Part shown: one piece after another, positions 2,441 through 12,719 of the stretch
Layout of the letters: each line of letters starts with the position of its first letter
Position numbering within the stretch: the first letter of the stretch is position 1
Source of the DNA: a virus
IMG/VR virus record: IMGVR_UViG_3300032011_000068
Span: 1 to 32,175 of that record
Direction: 5' to 3' (one strand)
DNA: 32,175 nucleotides
The notes under the pieces: model-generated
What the model was told of the DNA's origin: nothing
Databases searched by the model: none
The model's input: only the letters and a program-made list of their open reading frames with translations
Program-made: the position numbers and the translations under genes

Positions 2441-3370
2441 ATGGGTTTTAGCGACTTAAAAAAGGCATCTTCATTGGGCTCTCTTACCAATAAATTGGTA
2501 AAAGAAGTTGAAAAGATGAATAGTTCTGGAAGTAATTCTGATGAACGTCTTTGGAAACCAGAGATGGATAAATCAGGTAATGGTTATGCTGTTATTAGAT
2601 TTCTTCCTGCTGTTGATGGAGAAGAATTGCCTTGGGCTAAATTGTTTACTCATGCATTTCAAGGTCCTGGTGGATGGTATATTGAGAACTCTCTCACTAC
2701 TATCTCAGGTAAGGATCCTGTTAGTGATTTGAATAGAGAATTGTGGAATAGTGGTAGTGAACAGGATAAAGATACTGTACGCAAACAAAAGCGTAAGCTG
2801 AGTTTCTATAGTAACATTTATGTTGTTAAAGATCCTACCAATCCTCAGAATGAGGGCAAAGTTTTTCTTTATAAGTATGGAAGAAAAATCTTTGATAAAA
2901 TTATGGATGTGATGCAGCCAGAATTTGAGGATGAATCACCGATTAATCCTTTTGATTTTTGGGAAGGTGCTAACTTTAAACTGAAACTTCAGAAGAAAGA
3001 TGGTTACTGGAATTATGATAAGTCCGAATTTGATAATCAAACTCCTCTATTAGAGGATGATGAAGCACTTGAAGCACTTTGGAAGAAACAATATTCTTTA
3101 TCTGCTATTACTGCTCCCGATCAATTCAAAACTTATGATGAATTGAAAAAGAGGCTTGATTATGTTCTTGGAAATAAGAGTAATAATCAGAAAGTTACCA
3201 GTGAAGAATTGGATTATGATACTACTTCTCAAATTGAAACCAAAAGAGTTTCAGATGAGGAAGTATTGAAGAAACTTGAGAAGAGTGTTGCTAAAAGTAA
3301 AAAATCACCCCCATCAGAAGATGAAGATGATGATACTCTAAGCTATTTTCAAAAATTAGCTGATTCTTAA
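2441..3370 (+). CDS. 32: Single-stranded DNA-binding protein gp32
   Basis: This 309-residue protein (T4 gp32: 301) coats ssDNA at the replication fork and in recombination. It has a basic N-terminal arm, an OB core with N-G-Y-A-V-I-R-F-L-P, W-Y-I-E-N, Y-S-N-I-Y-V-V-K-D-P and N-E-G-K-V-F-L-Y-K-Y-G, and W-E-G-A-N-F-K-L-K-L, and an acidic tail (E-D-E-D-D-D) of the type that binds partner proteins. The zinc site is missing. Only the first ligand, a His in F-T-H-A-F, remains, and the whole protein has no cysteine, while T4 uses three. A serine/glycine and charged stretch replaces that loop. The gene follows gp59 and DUF1825 but has its own promoter and leader, consistent with higher expression. 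Confidence 0.93.
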   Translation: MGFSDLKKASSLGSLTNKLVKEVEKMNSSGSNSDERLWKPEMDKSGNGYAVIRFLPAVDGEELPWAKLFTHAFQGPGGWYIENSLTTISGKDPVSDLNRELWNSGSEQDKDTVRKQKRKLSFYSNIYVVKDPTNPQNEGKVFLYKYGRKIFDKIMDVMQPEFEDESPINPFDFWEGANFKLKLQKKDGYWNYDKSEFDNQTPLLEDDEALEALWKKQYSLSAITAPDQFKTYDELKKRLDYVLGNKSNNQKVTSEELDYDTTSQIETKRVSDEEVLKKLEKSVAKSKKSPPSEDEDDDTLSYFQKLADS

Positions 3371-6383: not shown

Positions 6384-7169
6384 ATGGCTGGGCCAAGACC
6401 TAATAAGATTAAAACGTCTAGTTTAAAGAGTAGGATTATGAATCTTGCTCAGGTTTCTGTATATCAAATTAAATTTGGTAATCTACCTATTAGATATAAT
6501 GACTATGATACTGAAAATATAGAACTTTTATGTGAAAGTGCAGAACTACCTGGAACATCATTCATGACTCATGAACAGTCGAATGATTATGCTGGTATTA
6601 CTGAAAGGTTTGCTTATCGTAGATCTTATACTCAAAAAATTCCCCTTACTTTTATGGTGGATAGGGAGTATAAGGTAATTGATTTCTTTGATAGATGGAT
6701 GGATTATATTAATAATAATGTATCTACATCTGATATGTCTTTTGGTTATAGGATGAAATACCCTGACGGGCCCAGAGGTTATAGGGCTGATATGTTCTTA
6801 ACAAAATTTGAAAAAGATGCTAAGGGTCCATCATTAGAATATAAATTTTTGGGAGCATATCCAGAATCTATTGATAGGATGGGTGTTAATTATAATAATA
6901 GTAATGAAATTTTAAGATGTGTTGTTACTATGTCCTTTGTACGTTATGTTAGGGGTCGTGATACTGCACCACCGCCGGAGTCATCAGCAGGATCAAATCT
7001 TATACTGCAACAACAAGCAGGATTGGAAGCAGGATTGGATGCTGCAACAAATAGTAATATTCGAGGAACCACTAGTCTTGGACTAACTGGTTCTGGAACT
7101 CTCTCTGAAGCGAACGAGATTAGAAATAGTGGAAATGTTAATGCATTCTCTGGTGTTTTTAGCACCTAA
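6384..7169 (+). CDS. 54: Baseplate tail-tube initiator gp54
   Basis: This 261-residue protein has the tail-tube-like fold expected of gp54, which with gp48 forms the platform on which gp19 tube rings assemble. Supporting segments are the N-terminal S-L-K-S-R-I-M-N-L-A-Q, C-E-S-A-E-L-P-G-T-S, Y-R-R-S-Y-T-Q-K-I-P-L-T-F and R-C-V-V-T-M-S-F-V-R-Y-V, which I associate with cyanophage gp54. The last 60 residues are low-complexity, Ser/Gly/Ala-rich. T4 gp54 is 320 residues. The ATG at 6384 has no Shine-Dalgarno. ATG 6438 has AGGA upstream, but the residues before it look conserved, so 6384 is kept. gp54 leads the rightward tail block. A simple gp19-like tube protein is the alternative. Confidence 0.75.
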   Translation: MAGPRPNKIKTSSLKSRIMNLAQVSVYQIKFGNLPIRYNDYDTENIELLCESAELPGTSFMTHEQSNDYAGITERFAYRRSYTQKIPLTFMVDREYKVIDFFDRWMDYINNNVSTSDMSFGYRMKYPDGPRGYRADMFLTKFEKDAKGPSLEYKFLGAYPESIDRMGVNYNNSNEILRCVVTMSFVRYVRGRDTAPPPESSAGSNLILQQQAGLEAGLDAATNSNIRGTTSLGLTGSGTLSEANEIRNSGNVNAFSGVFST

Positions 7170-7203: not shown

Positions 7204-7923
7204 ATGCCTTTACCAACAATTGCTACACCAACATATGAGTTGGAATTGCCTTCTACAAAACAAAAAATTAAGTATAGACCATTTTTAGTTAAAGAAGAAA
7301 AATTATTAGTTCTTGCTCTTGAGAGTGAGGATACCAAGCAGATTACAACAGCTATTAAGACTGTATTGAAGAATTGTATTTCTACAAAGGGTGTTAAGGT
7401 AGAAACACTTCCAACTTTTGATATTGAATTTCTTTTTCTTAATATTAGAGGTAAATCTGTTGGAGAAGAGATTGAATTAAATATTATTGCTCCTGATGAT
7501 GAAACAACTCCTGTTGAAATTAAAATTGATGTTGATGATATTAAGGTTCAGGAAAATAAGGACCATACTAAGAAAATTAAGATTGATGATGTTTTGATGA
7601 TGGAAATGAAGTACCCATCACTAGAACAATTCATTAAGACTAATTTTGATTTTAATGAAGTAAATGATATGGATAAATCATTTGAGTTAATTTCTAGTTG
7701 TATTGATAAAATTTATAGTGAAGAAGAGGTTTGGTCTTCTAGTGATGTGACTAAAAAAGAAATGATAGATTTTCTTGAGCAAATGAATTCTTTACAATTT
7801 AAAGAAATTGAAAAATTCTTTAATACTATGCCAAAATTATCTCATACAATTAAAGTAAAGAATCCAAATACAAAAGTAACAAGTGATGTTGTTTTAGAAG
7901 GGTTATCAAGTTTTTTCGGATAG
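7204..7923 (+). CDS. 26: Baseplate hub assembly protein gp26 (T4_baseplate family)
   Basis: This 239-residue protein fits the T4 gp26 family (T4_baseplate, PF12322; T4 gp26 is 208). The N-terminus contains Y-E-L-E-L-P-S-T-K-Q-K-I-K-Y-R-P-F and V-K-E-E-K-L-L-V-L-A, followed by F-D-I-E-F-L-F-L-N-I-R-G-K-S-V-G-E-E-I. The second half is acidic and helical. T4 gp26 is needed for hub assembly. The gene ends in S-S-F-F-G, and the codons for those phenylalanines form a T_TTT_TTC heptamer just before TAG. The next small gene lies in the -1 frame with no stop between, so a longer gp26-gp51 fusion of 299 residues (7204-8102) is possible by frameshifting. A late promoter lies 28 nt upstream. Confidence 0.85.
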   Translation: MPLPTIATPTYELELPSTKQKIKYRPFLVKEEKLLVLALESEDTKQITTAIKTVLKNCISTKGVKVETLPTFDIEFLFLNIRGKSVGEEIELNIIAPDDETTPVEIKIDVDDIKVQENKDHTKKIKIDDVLMMEMKYPSLEQFIKTNFDFNEVNDMDKSFELISSCIDKIYSEEEVWSSSDVTKKEMIDFLEQMNSLQFKEIEKFFNTMPKLSHTIKVKNPNTKVTSDVVLEGLSSFFG

Positions 7924-7941
7924 GCATGGTCCATATGGACC
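7911..7941 (+). promoter_or_regulatory. Candidate programmed -1 frameshift site at the gp26-gp51 junction
   Basis: The heptamer T_TTT_TTC (7911-7917) is in the X_XXY_YYZ register with gp26 codons TTT and TTC. The gp26 stop TAG (7921-7923) follows after one codon. Starting 10 nt after the heptamer, GGTCC (7928-7932), loop ATAT, and GGACC (7937-7941) form a perfect short hairpin that may act as stimulator. A -1 slip reads R-I-G and then enters the 7926 gene in frame. These facts are directly visible; use of the site is inferred by analogy with tail-chaperone frameshifts. Confidence 0.55.
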
Positions 7942-8102
7942 TTGCAAATTATTTTAAGCTTAACTTTGCTCTAATGCAGTATCATAAATACTCATTAACA
8001 GAGATTGAAAATATGATGCCTTGGGAACGTGATGTATATGTTTCCCTTTTGCAGCAGCATTTAGAGGAAGAAGAACAAAAGCACAAACAACAAAATGGCT
8101 AA
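7926..8102 (+). CDS. 51: Small hub assembly protein, gp51-like
   Basis: This 58-residue protein starts at ATG 7926, two bases after the gp26 stop, and ends at TAA 8100-8102, overlapping the next gene by eight bases. The sequence begins M-V-H-M-D-L-A-N-Y-F-K-L-N-F-A-L and continues with Y-S-L-T-E-I-E-N-M-M-P-W-E-R-D-V-Y-V-S-L-L and a charged E-E-E-E-Q-K-H-K tail. Size, pattern and position after gp26 fit the small protein usually called gp51, the T4 baseplate hub assembly catalyst. The shape, short domain with P-W-E-R plus charged helix, also resembles the T part of siphophage GT chaperones. It may be made alone by reinitiation or as a -1 frameshift extension of gp26. Alternative start: Met 4 at 7935. 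Confidence 0.7.
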   Translation: MVHMDLANYFKLNFALMQYHKYSLTEIENMMPWERDVYVSLLQQHLEEEEQKHKQQNG

Positions 8103-9990
8103 AATCGAAAAAATTGATCAAAAAATATTAAATTTGGTTGGTATTTTTGACTATGAAGCTGAGATGGATTATGATGAGTATATATCTCTTCTAAGAGAGA
8201 GAATGACTGCTGACCGTATGGGTCAGAAAGTTGATAGTGCTGATGCTAGTGATATTAAAGATGAATGGAAAAGGGTTAAAGGTGAGAAGGGTAGATTTAA
8301 AGTAGGATTAAAGGAACGAGCAAAGAAATTTGTTAATGGTGGAGAACAAAAACTTCTTAGTGGAACACAATTTACTAAACTTGATAATGAAAAAATACTT
8401 CCTTCCGGTAAAATGGATGGTGGTGGTGTAAAGAATGTTTCAAAAGCAAAAAATCCTTGGGAGTCTATATCAAATTCTATTAATGGTATTCAGAATAGTA
8501 TTAATAGAATTGCTGATATTTTAAATAAAAAGAATAAAATTGAAAGAACTCAACAAAGAGTGGGTTTTAAAATATCAAATGCTGCTAAAAGAGATAAAAG
8601 AGAAAATGAATTAGAAAATAAGGGTATTGCGGCTGTTAAAAATATAGCTTCAAAGGTTATGAAACCTGTTAAGTCTTTTTGGGATTCTATTTGGAATTTC
8701 TTGAAGTGGACATTTTTGGGAGCTGCTGTAAATAAAATATTAGAGATAATAAAGGATCCAGAAATTATTTTAAAACCTCTTAGGGATTTTGTTAATGGTA
8801 TAATTGATTTTTTGAATGGGTTAATGGAGAATATATTTAATTTCTTTGTTGCTCCACTTAATCTTCTTATAGATGGAATTAATAATGGTGTTGGACTTTT
8901 ATATGATAGGATGAATGATATAAGATCTCTTGTTAGTAATTTACCTGGAGTTGATTTAGAACCAGTTGGAAAACCTGAAAGAATGGAACATATAGAAAGG
9001 CCAGATTGGCTGGAAAATATGAAAATAGAACGTTGGGAAAAAGATGATGATAAAGTTCAAAAACTCGCTGGTGGTGGAGTAACATCTAATAGTGGGAAAA
9101 AAATTACTGGTATGGGACCAGATACTCAATTGATTGCTGCTCAGCCTGGTGAAGTGGTTATGAGTAAAAAGGCTGTGGATCATTGGGGTCGTGATAATTT
9201 ACTTTCTATGAATAAAGAAGGTGGAGGAACCAATATATCATCTTTTGGTAGTGGACCTATACAAAGAATGAGTGGTGGTGGTTCTGTAAGTCCATTTCCA
9301 GAAGGAAGTTATAAAGGACAACATGGACAAGTATTTGGTGATCCAAGATCTTATGGGGGTCATGTTGGGATGGATGTTACAGAAAATGCTCCCTATAAGA
9401 GTGATCCAGAAAGACCCATTTATGCTCCAGTAAATTCTAAAGTTTTGGCTGAAAAATATCAAACTAGTGGTTATACATCTGGATTAATGTTGGATCATGG
9501 GGATGGATTTCAATCTAGATATGTGCATATGCATCCAATGAAAAAACCTGGTGATTCAGTAGCGCCAGGAGAACAGATTGGTAAGTTGAGGGCTCTTGGT
9601 AAGTCACCTGATTGGAATAGTACTCATTTACATTTTGAACTTTATAGGGGACCAAATCTCATTAATCCTACAAGTTTTTATCAAGGATTAGTTAAGGGTC
9701 AATACAAACCTAGTACTTCTAGAGGTTTTGGTGATTTAGATAAGTATTCTGCTGGTGAAGGTGGTTTTAGATCAATAAACTTAAATAATACCTTAAGTTC
9801 TTCAATTTCAAGAGCTTCAGCTACTGGTGGTAGTGGTCCAAGAATAGTATTTGTTGGTGGTGGTGATGGTGGTGACCAATCCAATTCTAGTGCTGATGCA
9901 AATCAAAATGTTCCTTCCAATTTTTCATCAACAGATTCTTCCAATTCTGAATTAATTGTTATTAAATCAATTTATAACATTGTAGGATAA
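8095..9990 (+). CDS. Tape-measure/hub-like protein with M23 peptidase domain
   Basis: This 631-residue protein has a charged helical N-terminal third, hydrophobic helices (about residues 200-285), a tape-measure-like motif with Q-P-G-E-V-V-M-S-K-K-A-V and L-L-S-M-N (about 350-375), and an M23 (lysostaphin-type) metallopeptidase domain at about 400-525. The zinc-site residues are present: H423-x-x-x-D427, and H511-L-H513-F-E, with a further H478-M-H480. M23 enzymes cut peptidoglycan cross-bridges, so this is likely a virion protein that opens the cell wall during injection. The length is close to T4 gp29 (590), but I cannot show homology. It shares its central block with the next gene. The stop overlaps that gene's start (TAATG). 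Confidence 0.78.
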   Translation: MAKIEKIDQKILNLVGIFDYEAEMDYDEYISLLRERMTADRMGQKVDSADASDIKDEWKRVKGEKGRFKVGLKERAKKFVNGGEQKLLSGTQFTKLDNEKILPSGKMDGGGVKNVSKAKNPWESISNSINGIQNSINRIADILNKKNKIERTQQRVGFKISNAAKRDKRENELENKGIAAVKNIASKVMKPVKSFWDSIWNFLKWTFLGAAVNKILEIIKDPEIILKPLRDFVNGIIDFLNGLMENIFNFFVAPLNLLIDGINNGVGLLYDRMNDIRSLVSNLPGVDLEPVGKPERMEHIERPDWLENMKIERWEKDDDKVQKLAGGGVTSNSGKKITGMGPDTQLIAAQPGEVVMSKKAVDHWGRDNLLSMNKEGGGTNISSFGSGPIQRMSGGGSVSPFPEGSYKGQHGQVFGDPRSYGGHVGMDVTENAPYKSDPERPIYAPVNSKVLAEKYQTSGYTSGLMLDHGDGFQSRYVHMHPMKKPGDSVAPGEQIGKLRALGKSPDWNSTHLHFELYRGPNLINPTSFYQGLVKGQYKPSTSRGFGDLDKYSAGEGGFRSINLNNTLSSSISRASATGGSGPRIVFVGGGDGGDQSNSSADANQNVPSNFSSTDSSNSELIVIKSIYNIVG

Positions 9991-12719
9991 TGAGTCTTAT
10001 ATCTTCCGCTTTATCTACTATTAAAAAAGGATCATCTGCTTTAGATAAAAATGAAGTAGAGAAAGGAATTGTAAAATCCTATAAAAAAGAATCTGCTAAG
10101 AAGTTTGTTGGTGGAGGATCTAATACTGAAGTAGGTGTTGAGATTGCATCGAAGGATATTAAAAAAACTAAAGTTGGTAAGGGAGTTGGATATTCTAATA
10201 TTGTTGATCAGTTAAATGGTATTCTGGCTACTACTGATGGTATCAAGAATACATTATTAACAGATTATGCAAATGAGGTTAAGAAGAATAGGGCTGAGAA
10301 AAGGATATCTAATGCTGAAAAGAGAAGGAAAAAGGAAGATAATTTAGAATCTAAAAGTAATAAAAAGGGAAAAGGATTTTCTGTACCCGGCTTTATTTCA
10401 AAGCCAGCCTCATCTATTTTTGATTGGATATTGAATTTCGTTGGAATGACCATTCTTGGTTCTTTTGTTAATTTAGGTTTAAAGAATTTTGATAAAATTA
10501 CTAAATTCTTTAAGGATATTACTGGATCTGGTGGTGGTTTGAATTCTGGGAATATATTTTGGTTGATAAGGGCTGCTTTATATAAACTTATAATTCCAAA
10601 ATTTTTCATAAAATTAGCTCTTAGAGGACTTGGTTTACTTTTAAGTCCTTTAAAACTTATTACAGCACCATTTAGATTTGCTGGTGGTTTGATATTTAAT
10701 ACTTTGAAGTTTGTTGGAAATACATTATTTAACTGGACATCAAAGATTGTTAAGTCAGTAACAAATATAGGAAGAAGTATAGGAAGGCGTGTATTGCCAT
10801 CAGTGGCAAGAGGATTGGGTTCTACAAACAGAAAACTTTTTCCAGGGAGTCCTAGAATAACTCCTGGTGGTTATTCTAGGACTGGAAAAACTTCACCAAG
10901 TGGAAGAACTAAGGGTGGTTCAAGAATTCAAAAATTGCATGGTCATTCTGCAGCTGATTTATATGAAAATAGTTATAAAAATGCTAGAGCCAATGGAAAG
11001 TCTCCTACTGATGCTGCAAGAAGAGCGAATGCGGATGTAAAGAAAGCATTAAAAAAAGGTAGAATTGTATCCAAACCACAATCTTCATTAGCAAAGATTA
11101 AAGGTAGTAATGTTTTTAGACGTGGATTTAAACCAAACCGAATGATACTTAAGATATTTGGAAAAGGACCAGCCAAATTTCTTGCTGCAAATGCGAAAAT
11201 ATTTGCACAATTTGGTAAAGTATTACAAGGATCACCGATTAGAATTCCAGTAATTGGACCTCTTATGGTCGCGGCATTATCTTTATTGGATCCTGCACAA
11301 GGTATTAAACAAACTTTATTTAAGACACTTGGTGCTGCAATAGGTGGTGCAATAGGATTAGCTATACCCATTCCTGTTGTTGGAATGGTAATGGGTGAAA
11401 TGATTGGTGAATTTGTTGGTGATTTACTTTTTCAAGGAATGGTGCAGGGCGACTGGGCAGGAGCAAGAGATAGGCTTAAACAGAAACTTTTGGAGCTTCT
11501 TCAAGGAGGAAAGGAAGCTTTAGAATGGGTTGGTGGGGGAGCCTCAAGATTTTATGAAGCTTTACCTAAGATTAAGATACCAGATTTTCCTAAAGATCCA
11601 CCTGGTGTTCTTAAAGATATTCCTTTGATAGGAGGCTTTTTAGGAGGATCTTGGGAAAAATTAAAAATAGCACTGAAAGTGATGCTTGGTCCTCTTAGTT
11701 TGCTGATGGGTAAAGAAATACCAGATATTGGGTTCTTTCTTGATTTTAACAATTTTCTCGGTGGACCATTGTTATTGAAATCTTTCTTTCCTGATGGTTT
11801 TGTTAATACGATGAAATCTGCAGCAACATCATTTCTTGGAATGGAAGGTGAATCTGAAAATCAATTTGAGGAGAATGGGAATAATAATTTTAATGATTCT
11901 GGACCTTCTGGACCTGCTTCTTATGCACCAGGTCAAATTCCATCTAAAGTGAGAAATGATGTTGCATTTACTTCTGCTGTTACTGCAATGGCAAAGAAAT
12001 ATAATATTCCTGAAGATTATCTTTATGCTGTTATGTCATTTGAAACGGGAGGTTCTTTTAGTCCCTCACAAAAAAATATGGCTGGTTCTGGTGCTACAGG
12101 ACTGATTCAATTTATGCCATCTACAGCACGAGGATTGGGAACTACAACTGATGCATTGGCGAAGATGTCAAGAGCAGAACAGATGGTATATGTTGATAAG
12201 TATTTTTCAAATAAAGGAATAACAGGTGGTTCTCTATCTGATGTTTATATGGCTGTTCTTTTCCCAGCTGCTGTAGGAAAATCTGAGAATTTTGTTCTCT
12301 TTGGTAAAGGGGCAATGAAAGGGTATACTGGTATAGCATATCGACAAAATTCTGGTTTAGATATTAATCGTGATGGTAGTGTTACTAAAGCAGAGGCTTC
12401 TGCTAAAGTTACAAAGAATCTTCCTATTTCAACACCAGATAATAGTACACAAATATCTCCTAATTCTCAATCATCAGGAAATTCTTCTTCTATAACAGGA
12501 TCTTCTTCAAAATCATCTTCTCCATCATCGGTATCTACTTATGCATCATACGAAAATGGTGGTGATGATAGTAATACTATTGTGGTTACTTTACCAGATA
12601 GATATTATCAATCAGGTAGTGAATCTTCATCGTTACCAATTTTAGCTATGGATTCTAAATCTATATTAAATAGTTATTACAAATCTCAACTTGTGGGATT
12701 TTTATATAAGCAGGGATAA
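9990..12719 (+). CDS. Tape-measure/hub-like protein with SLT transglycosylase-like domain and EF-hand
   Basis: This 909-residue protein has a basic N-terminal region with R-I-S-N-A-E-K-R-R-K-K-E and F-D-W-I-L-N-F, matching the preceding gene. Several hydrophobic helices follow (about 180-260), then a basic Gly/Ser linker and a Gly/Ala-rich hydrophobic hairpin (about 427-485). Residues 665-820 resemble a soluble lytic transglycosylase domain: S-F-E-T-G-G with E685 as likely catalytic acid, then G-A-T-G-L-I-Q-F-M-P-S-T-A. A canonical EF-hand loop D791-I-N-R-D-G-S-V-T-K-A-E802 lies inside it. A Ser-rich tail follows. Predicted role: a tail-borne enzyme that cuts glycan strands, possibly also entering the inner membrane. 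It is TAATG-coupled to both neighbours. Confidence 0.78.
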   Translation: MSLISSALSTIKKGSSALDKNEVEKGIVKSYKKESAKKFVGGGSNTEVGVEIASKDIKKTKVGKGVGYSNIVDQLNGILATTDGIKNTLLTDYANEVKKNRAEKRISNAEKRRKKEDNLESKSNKKGKGFSVPGFISKPASSIFDWILNFVGMTILGSFVNLGLKNFDKITKFFKDITGSGGGLNSGNIFWLIRAALYKLIIPKFFIKLALRGLGLLLSPLKLITAPFRFAGGLIFNTLKFVGNTLFNWTSKIVKSVTNIGRSIGRRVLPSVARGLGSTNRKLFPGSPRITPGGYSRTGKTSPSGRTKGGSRIQKLHGHSAADLYENSYKNARANGKSPTDAARRANADVKKALKKGRIVSKPQSSLAKIKGSNVFRRGFKPNRMILKIFGKGPAKFLAANAKIFAQFGKVLQGSPIRIPVIGPLMVAALSLLDPAQGIKQTLFKTLGAAIGGAIGLAIPIPVVGMVMGEMIGEFVGDLLFQGMVQGDWAGARDRLKQKLLELLQGGKEALEWVGGGASRFYEALPKIKIPDFPKDPPGVLKDIPLIGGFLGGSWEKLKIALKVMLGPLSLLMGKEIPDIGFFLDFNNFLGGPLLLKSFFPDGFVNTMKSAATSFLGMEGESENQFEENGNNNFNDSGPSGPASYAPGQIPSKVRNDVAFTSAVTAMAKKYNIPEDYLYAVMSFETGGSFSPSQKNMAGSGATGLIQFMPSTARGLGTTTDALAKMSRAEQMVYVDKYFSNKGITGGSLSDVYMAVLFPAAVGKSENFVLFGKGAMKGYTGIAYRQNSGLDINRDGSVTKAEASAKVTKNLPISTPDNSTQISPNSQSSGNSSSITGSSSKSSSPSSVSTYASYENGGDDSNTIVVTLPDRYYQSGSESSSLPILAMDSKSILNSYYKSQLVGFLYKQG

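Follow-up and report, generated by a model that had tools for sequence, protein, structure and literature searches.

The gp26-like and gp51-like reading frames of a T4-like cyanophage can be regarded with high confidence as one gene that would make two tail-assembly chaperones via a -1 frameshift, and the fusion is very likely produced by a ribosomal slip. The pair resides in a viral DNA of 32,175 nt (IMG/VR record IMGVR_UViG_3300032011_000068), here called the window, and the nearest named-phage relatives of its gp26-like protein are those of the Synechococcus phages S-H68 (80%) and S-SM2 (74%). A previous examination of this DNA without database searches (the sequence-only reading) had proposed that the two proteins are equivalents of the G and GT tail chaperones. 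This proposal gained support from conservation of the slip site, of the frame, and of coding in the -1 frame, as well as from comparison with T4, gene order, and a chaperone-like predicted fold. The accompanying suggestion, that T4 gp26 and gp51 would thereby be linked to the general tail-chaperone system, is likewise supported, but it is not new because the papers we consulted (PMC10885494; PMC12846349) credit it to Vladimirov et al. (2022). The features relevant to the argument are as follows.

6384 to 7169, plus strand: tail-tube-like gene directly upstream (phrog_45 tail tube, E 4.8e-34; PF23849 tail tube)
7204 to 7923, plus strand: gp26-like gene, short form (G-like, 239 aa; phrog_150, E 1.7e-75; PF12322, E 3.6e-72)
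7896 to 7902, plus strand: SD-like AGAAGGG, possible upstream stimulator, 8 nt 5′ of the heptamer (GAGG/GAAGG conserved)
7911 to 7917, plus strand: slippery heptamer T_TTT_TTC in the gp26 register (T_TTT_TTN in 218 of 220 distinct junctions)
7917 to 8102, plus strand: predicted -1-frame extension of the long form (T-like, 61 aa post-slip; phrog_634, E 4e-29)
7921 to 7923, plus strand: gp26 stop codon TAG in the 0 frame (read from the sequence)
7924 to 7945, plus strand: hairpin GGTCC (7928-7932)/GGACC (7937-7941), with a possible lower stem GCA (7924-7926)/TGC (7943-7945) (fold z -2.97)
8095 to 9990, plus strand: candidate tape-measure gene directly downstream, 631 aa, with an M23 peptidase domain (weak PHROG tape-measure matches, E 3e-4, and position)

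The 3′ end of the gp26-like gene (7204-7923) reads TCA AGT TTT TTC GGA TAG. The heptamer is therefore in the X_XXY_YYZ register with gp26, and the single codon GGA separates it from the stop. Following a -1 slip, the reading becomes TTT TTT CGG ATA GGC ATG GTC and remains open up to the TAA at 8100-8102, which gives a predicted short form of 239 aa and a fusion of 238 + 61 = 299 aa. On each of these points (the heptamer in register shortly before the TAG, the stop-free gp51-like frame at -1, and the sizes of both products) checking and recomputation returned what the sequence-only reading had stated. If read alone, the gp51-like open reading frame would start at ATG 7926 and pass to the same TAA. 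In addition to phrog_634, the -1 extension matches positions 241-281 of phrog_150.

In the mechanism that we propose, most ribosomes would terminate at the TAG (7921-7923) and release the 239-aa short form. A minority would slip by -1 on T_TTT_TTC, with tRNA-Phe in both sites, and would continue to the 299-aa form carrying the gp51-like tail. The slip is probably aided by the upstream SD-like AGAAGGG and, within a subgroup of relatives, by the small downstream hairpin. Lambda gpG/gpGT serves as the model for their function: the tape-measure protein would be coated by the short form, tail-tube subunits would be brought in by the tail of the long form, and both forms would depart before the virion is completed. 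The sequence signals, their conservation, and the domain relation to T4 gp26 and gp51 are observed here, and from these observations we infer the occurrence of the slip, its rate, and the role of the products in assembly.

Homologous junctions were drawn from IMG/VR and from named phages, which yielded 220 distinct examples. An in-register T_TTT_TTN lies 0-2 codons from the gp26 stop in 218 of these, and it is kept in 45 of 47 after thinning to mutually diverged representatives. The gp51-like part is in the -1 frame and open in all 220, and it extends for at least 37 codons in every case except one (L003), in which the -1 frame of 21 codons is ended by the end of the contig. Among 201 aligned relatives, the base preceding TTT is invariably T, while the codon to which it belongs varies (Ser, Asn, Asp, Ala, or Gly). 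The second Phe codon has changed to Leu in some lineages (TTA in 20 junctions and TTG in 1), leaving the heptamer still slippery. In cyanophages with both matches, among the matches listed, the gp51 match is at a constant -1 offset from that of gp26.

The signal is conserved in Kyanoviridae and is retained in phages of Delftia, Caulobacter, Sinorhizobium, Stenotrophomonas, and Aeromonas. Named phages that carry it include Syn9, S-PM2, MA01, Melnitz, phiM19, phiAS5, QD01, D479, Bhz51, PhiW-14, and Cr30. Outside the T4 group itself, most of the T4-like phages sampled, marine cyanophages included, conserve the slip signal. The sequence-only reading had held that relatives without a slippery site, or with the second gene in another frame, would speak against a frameshift; just 2 of the 220 junctions lack the heptamer, and none is out of the -1 frame. 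Of the three elements whose conservation it had raised, heptamer and frame are thus widely kept, whereas the hairpin is not conserved beyond the subgroup to which the window belongs.

The two representatives among the 47 from which the classical heptamer is absent are the Ackermann-like Vibrio phages D495 and 207E48.1 (L088 2839-3755 and L092 2854-3758). Both retain the -1 arrangement and a T-like open reading frame. Their junctions read CTT TTC AAG TAA and CTT TTT CGG TAA, with a stop-start overlap TAATG, and these phages may use a different slip or reinitiation.

Straight after the heptamer, the -1 frame shows the pattern R-[ILV]-[AG]-[LM]-x-H with variable third codon positions. This codon-position pattern begins at the slip site, 5′ of any start codon. 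The overlapping stop constrains codon 1 of the -1 frame, but codons 3 and 5 are free of that constraint. These observations bear on the possibility that the gp51-like product is a separate small protein made by termination at TAG 7921-7923 and reinitiation at ATG 7926, which we consider unlikely. The ATG lies 2 nt past the stop in the window and is usable in principle, and overlapping stop-start sequences (TGATG or TAATG) are found in Bhz51, PhiW-14, QD01, Cr30, and Ackermann-like phages. However, ATG 7926 has no good SD at the proper distance. Moreover, the first 12 codons of the gp51-like part are devoid of ATG in 71 of 218 junctions, and of ATG, GTG, and TTG alike in 19 of 45 representatives, yet the residues are conserved regardless. 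Because the start codon is missing and the residues are conserved, a frameshift would be the only plausible source of the gp51-like beginning in those phages, and no other argument weighs as strongly against reinitiation being the main route. Reinitiation would also leave the conserved heptamer unexplained, and T4 gp51, a single chain with both parts, counts against it.

A fusion could also arise if the polymerase, rather than the ribosome, slipped on the T run. A homopolymer run is indeed located at the shift point, but the run in the window has only six T, and polymerase slippage generally requires longer homopolymer runs than this. As ribosomal slippage predicts, the register of the codons is kept, and so are the T ahead of TTT and the fixed spacing of the SD-like element. 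We judge transcriptional slippage to be very improbable. Finally, T runs are frequent in AT-rich DNA and one third of neighboring gene pairs are expected to be in the -1 frame by chance, but the idea that a chance T run closes an AT-rich gene whose neighbor happens to lie at -1 has a negligible probability and is refuted by the conservation counts, in that in-register T_TTT_TTN occurs only 13 times among 50,940 other codons of the same genes versus 218 of 220 junctions, is kept in phages of the five host genera named above, and persists in the diverged representatives.

Two elements near the heptamer may stimulate the slip. Among aligned relatives, 199 of 201 carry GAGG or GAAGG ~8 nt 5′ of the heptamer, as do 40 of 45 representatives; control windows have it in 61 of 940 cases. 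Some of this conservation arises because Glu-Gly is conserved there. Codon choice is nevertheless shifted at the site, with counts (which ignore shared ancestry) of 115 GAG versus 81 GAA, as against 1429 versus 3587 elsewhere, and with GGG at 39% versus 7% elsewhere. Among the 45 representatives, the Gly codon at this site is mostly GGA, and GGG is found in 7. The AGAAGGG of the window (7896-7902) had not been mentioned in the sequence-only reading.

That reading did report the GGTCC/GGACC hairpin, which indeed starts 10 nt past the heptamer; the spacer is 6 nt if the lower stem is included. Positions 7904-7990 fold more stably than all 200 shuffled sequences (z = -2.97). Covariation of the upper stem is confined to the window's subgroup, and the lower stem is not conserved. 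Within the subgroup, ATC is accompanied by GAT in 18 sequences and by GAC in 0, while GTC is accompanied by GAC in 20 and by GAT in 4; after thinning to less related sequences, the corresponding ratios are 12:0 and 8:3. For the half of the relatives that fall outside the subgroup, no stem is formed and pairing is near the expectation for independence. The hairpin was consequently dropped as a universal stimulator, and what stands of the original claim is its presence in the window and its subgroup. No terminator was found in the junction region. Since the SD-like element is broadly kept and the hairpin is limited to a subgroup, the slip site and the SD-like element would form the general core of the signal and the hairpin a lineage-specific addition. 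We infer the stimulating effect of either element from these patterns of conservation.

Gene order is consistent with a role in tail assembly. The tail-tube gene upstream is clear, and the candidate tape-measure gene at 8095-9990 is suggested by weak matches and by its position. In Cr30, an annotated tape measure lies one gene downstream. The reading frames at 8095-9990 and 9990-12719 are large tail genes that follow one another, and either may be the tape measure. An M23 peptidase domain is present in one and an SLT transglycosylase domain in the other, and both match phrog_35029.

A predicted structure of the gp26-like protein (pLDDT 87) has as its best three PDB matches 3FGX, 2OB9 (HK97 gp13), and 3KLU (YqbN), with Z scores of 7.8, 7.8, and 7.2 over residues 1-96; the next match scores 4.9. 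These are the three structures that have been described as phage tail assembly chaperones (PMC9603447). The scores are middling (Z below 8, and a Foldseek E value of 0.94, which is not significant), and we have moderate confidence that the modeled protein has an HK97 gp13-like chaperone fold. AlphaFold models of the gp26-like protein and of T4-type gp51 have a similar order of elements, with extra helices at 206-248 in the latter. No tail chaperone was among the fold matches listed for the T4-type gp51 model, which was made from 5 sequences, and a PDB sequence search with gp26 and T4-type gp51 revealed no meaningful relative.

Both parts of the window pair are homologous to T4 gp26/gp51. The two T4 proteins are themselves paralogous (BLASTP E 2e-6; PF12322 matched by both). 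T4 gp51 gives a full-length phrog_150 match and a phrog_634 match at its end, and T4 gp26 corresponds to the first part only. Likewise, T4-type gp51 is matched over residues 6-186 by a profile of gp26 from the window's family (E 2.6e-9) and over residues 207-247 by the -1 extension (E 1.6e-7). A frameshift in T4 itself is excluded because its gene 26 is encoded on the minus strand, whereas gene 51 occupies the plus strand. T4-type gp51 appears as two open reading frames in different frames at one locus (L265 2501-3258, with 2501-2863 and 2887-3258), which may reflect a sequencing error or a true indel.

Copy numbers agree with this division. PF12322 is present in a single copy in each of the 15 frameshift-type genomes whose complete records were checked, in Vibrio phages D495 and 207E48.1, which lack the heptamer, and in the window, where the copy is split by frame; T4-type genomes have two such genes. 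No second PF12322 copy or in-frame fusion was found in the whole records of the 15 genomes, and the T4-type arrangement, a pair of PF12322 genes of which one is an in-frame fusion, is not matched by the frameshift-type relatives. Given that T4 gp51 has both parts and T4 gp26 the first part only, these counts indicate that T4 holds as two genes what frameshift-type phages appear to hold as one. A tentative scenario, to which we assign somewhat less than even probability, is that the single frameshifted locus is older among T4-like phages and that T4 duplicated it, with gp51 becoming a fixed fusion and gp26 staying short and moving to the opposite strand. In the same scenario, the cyanophage shift would be tuned by a three-part signal made up of the SD-like element, T_TTT_TTN, and the lineage-specific hairpin.

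The cyanophage annotations examined do not reflect such an arrangement. In the records of Syn9, S-H68, SynMITS9220M01, Sf-CH8, and WH25-B, gp51 is a separate coding sequence with an internal start; in that of S-PM2 it begins at an ATG; and in that of ACG-2014d (L271 2498-2686) no gene is annotated over the gp51-like part. A joined gp26-gp51 product is marked in none of these seven cyanophage records. The omission in ACG-2014d and the internal ATG starts elsewhere arise because annotation ignores the frameshift. With gp51 called as a separate and often truncated gene, or missed, fusion peptides would escape standard proteome searches.

Several known systems resemble the one described here. The -1 frameshift cassette of dnaX has an upstream SD-like element and a downstream hairpin. 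The SD-like element ~10 nt 5′ of the heptamer in this type of stimulated cassette appears to be matched in the window's family, whereas the hairpin covaries in the window's subgroup and is at chance elsewhere. The E/E+E′ genes of phage P2 shift at T_TTT_TTG and have no downstream structure (PMC3091744), which differs from the subgroup hairpin found here. The two systems share a T6N-type slip site, a -1 shift, and a location among tail genes between tail tube and tape measure, the latter being a candidate in the window. The likeness noted here is one of arrangement and slip site.

A short and a long form that share one start, with a -1 slip near the end of the first gene, are also seen in lambda (gpG/gpGT) and in tail assembly chaperones of long-tailed phages (Xu et al. 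2004, as described in PMC5009743). Like the lambda-type genes, the pair sits between the tail-tube gene and the candidate tape-measure gene, and it has an HK97 gp13-like predicted fold. It differs from lambda in its heptamer, which is T_TTT_TTC, in its longer first protein (239 aa), in its extra conserved SD-like element, and in that its long product is a prediction from sequence.

A close precedent is the work of Vladimirov, Gautam, and Davidson (2022), known to us through papers that cite it. According to these, some T4-like phages do without a frameshift and have one gene for the short chaperone and a fused one for the long (PMC10885494), and TAC-N genes of T4-like phages have poly-T frameshift signals (PMC12846349). 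The TAC genes so described, with short and long forms and a poly-T slip signal, very probably belong to the same family as the gp26/gp51-like pair, and that work, to judge from its citations, probably covers the core of the present finding. From the same citing papers, the frameshift trick and the tail-chaperone identity of these genes are already known in outline. Our literature search, which reached that study through its citations only, found no paper on the cyanophage frameshift itself and no description of the cyanophage detail, the SD-like element, the hairpin covariation, or the missing start codons.

T4 itself offers the remaining comparison. Of its two hub assembly chaperones, T4 gp26 corresponds to the short form and T4 gp51 to the fusion, with both parts homologous. 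The difference is that T4 uses no frameshift but a pair of paralogous genes located on opposite strands, whereas frameshift-type phages have one gene. The T4 pair appears to be the duplicated-gene version of a frameshifted system of marine cyanophages and other T4-like phages.
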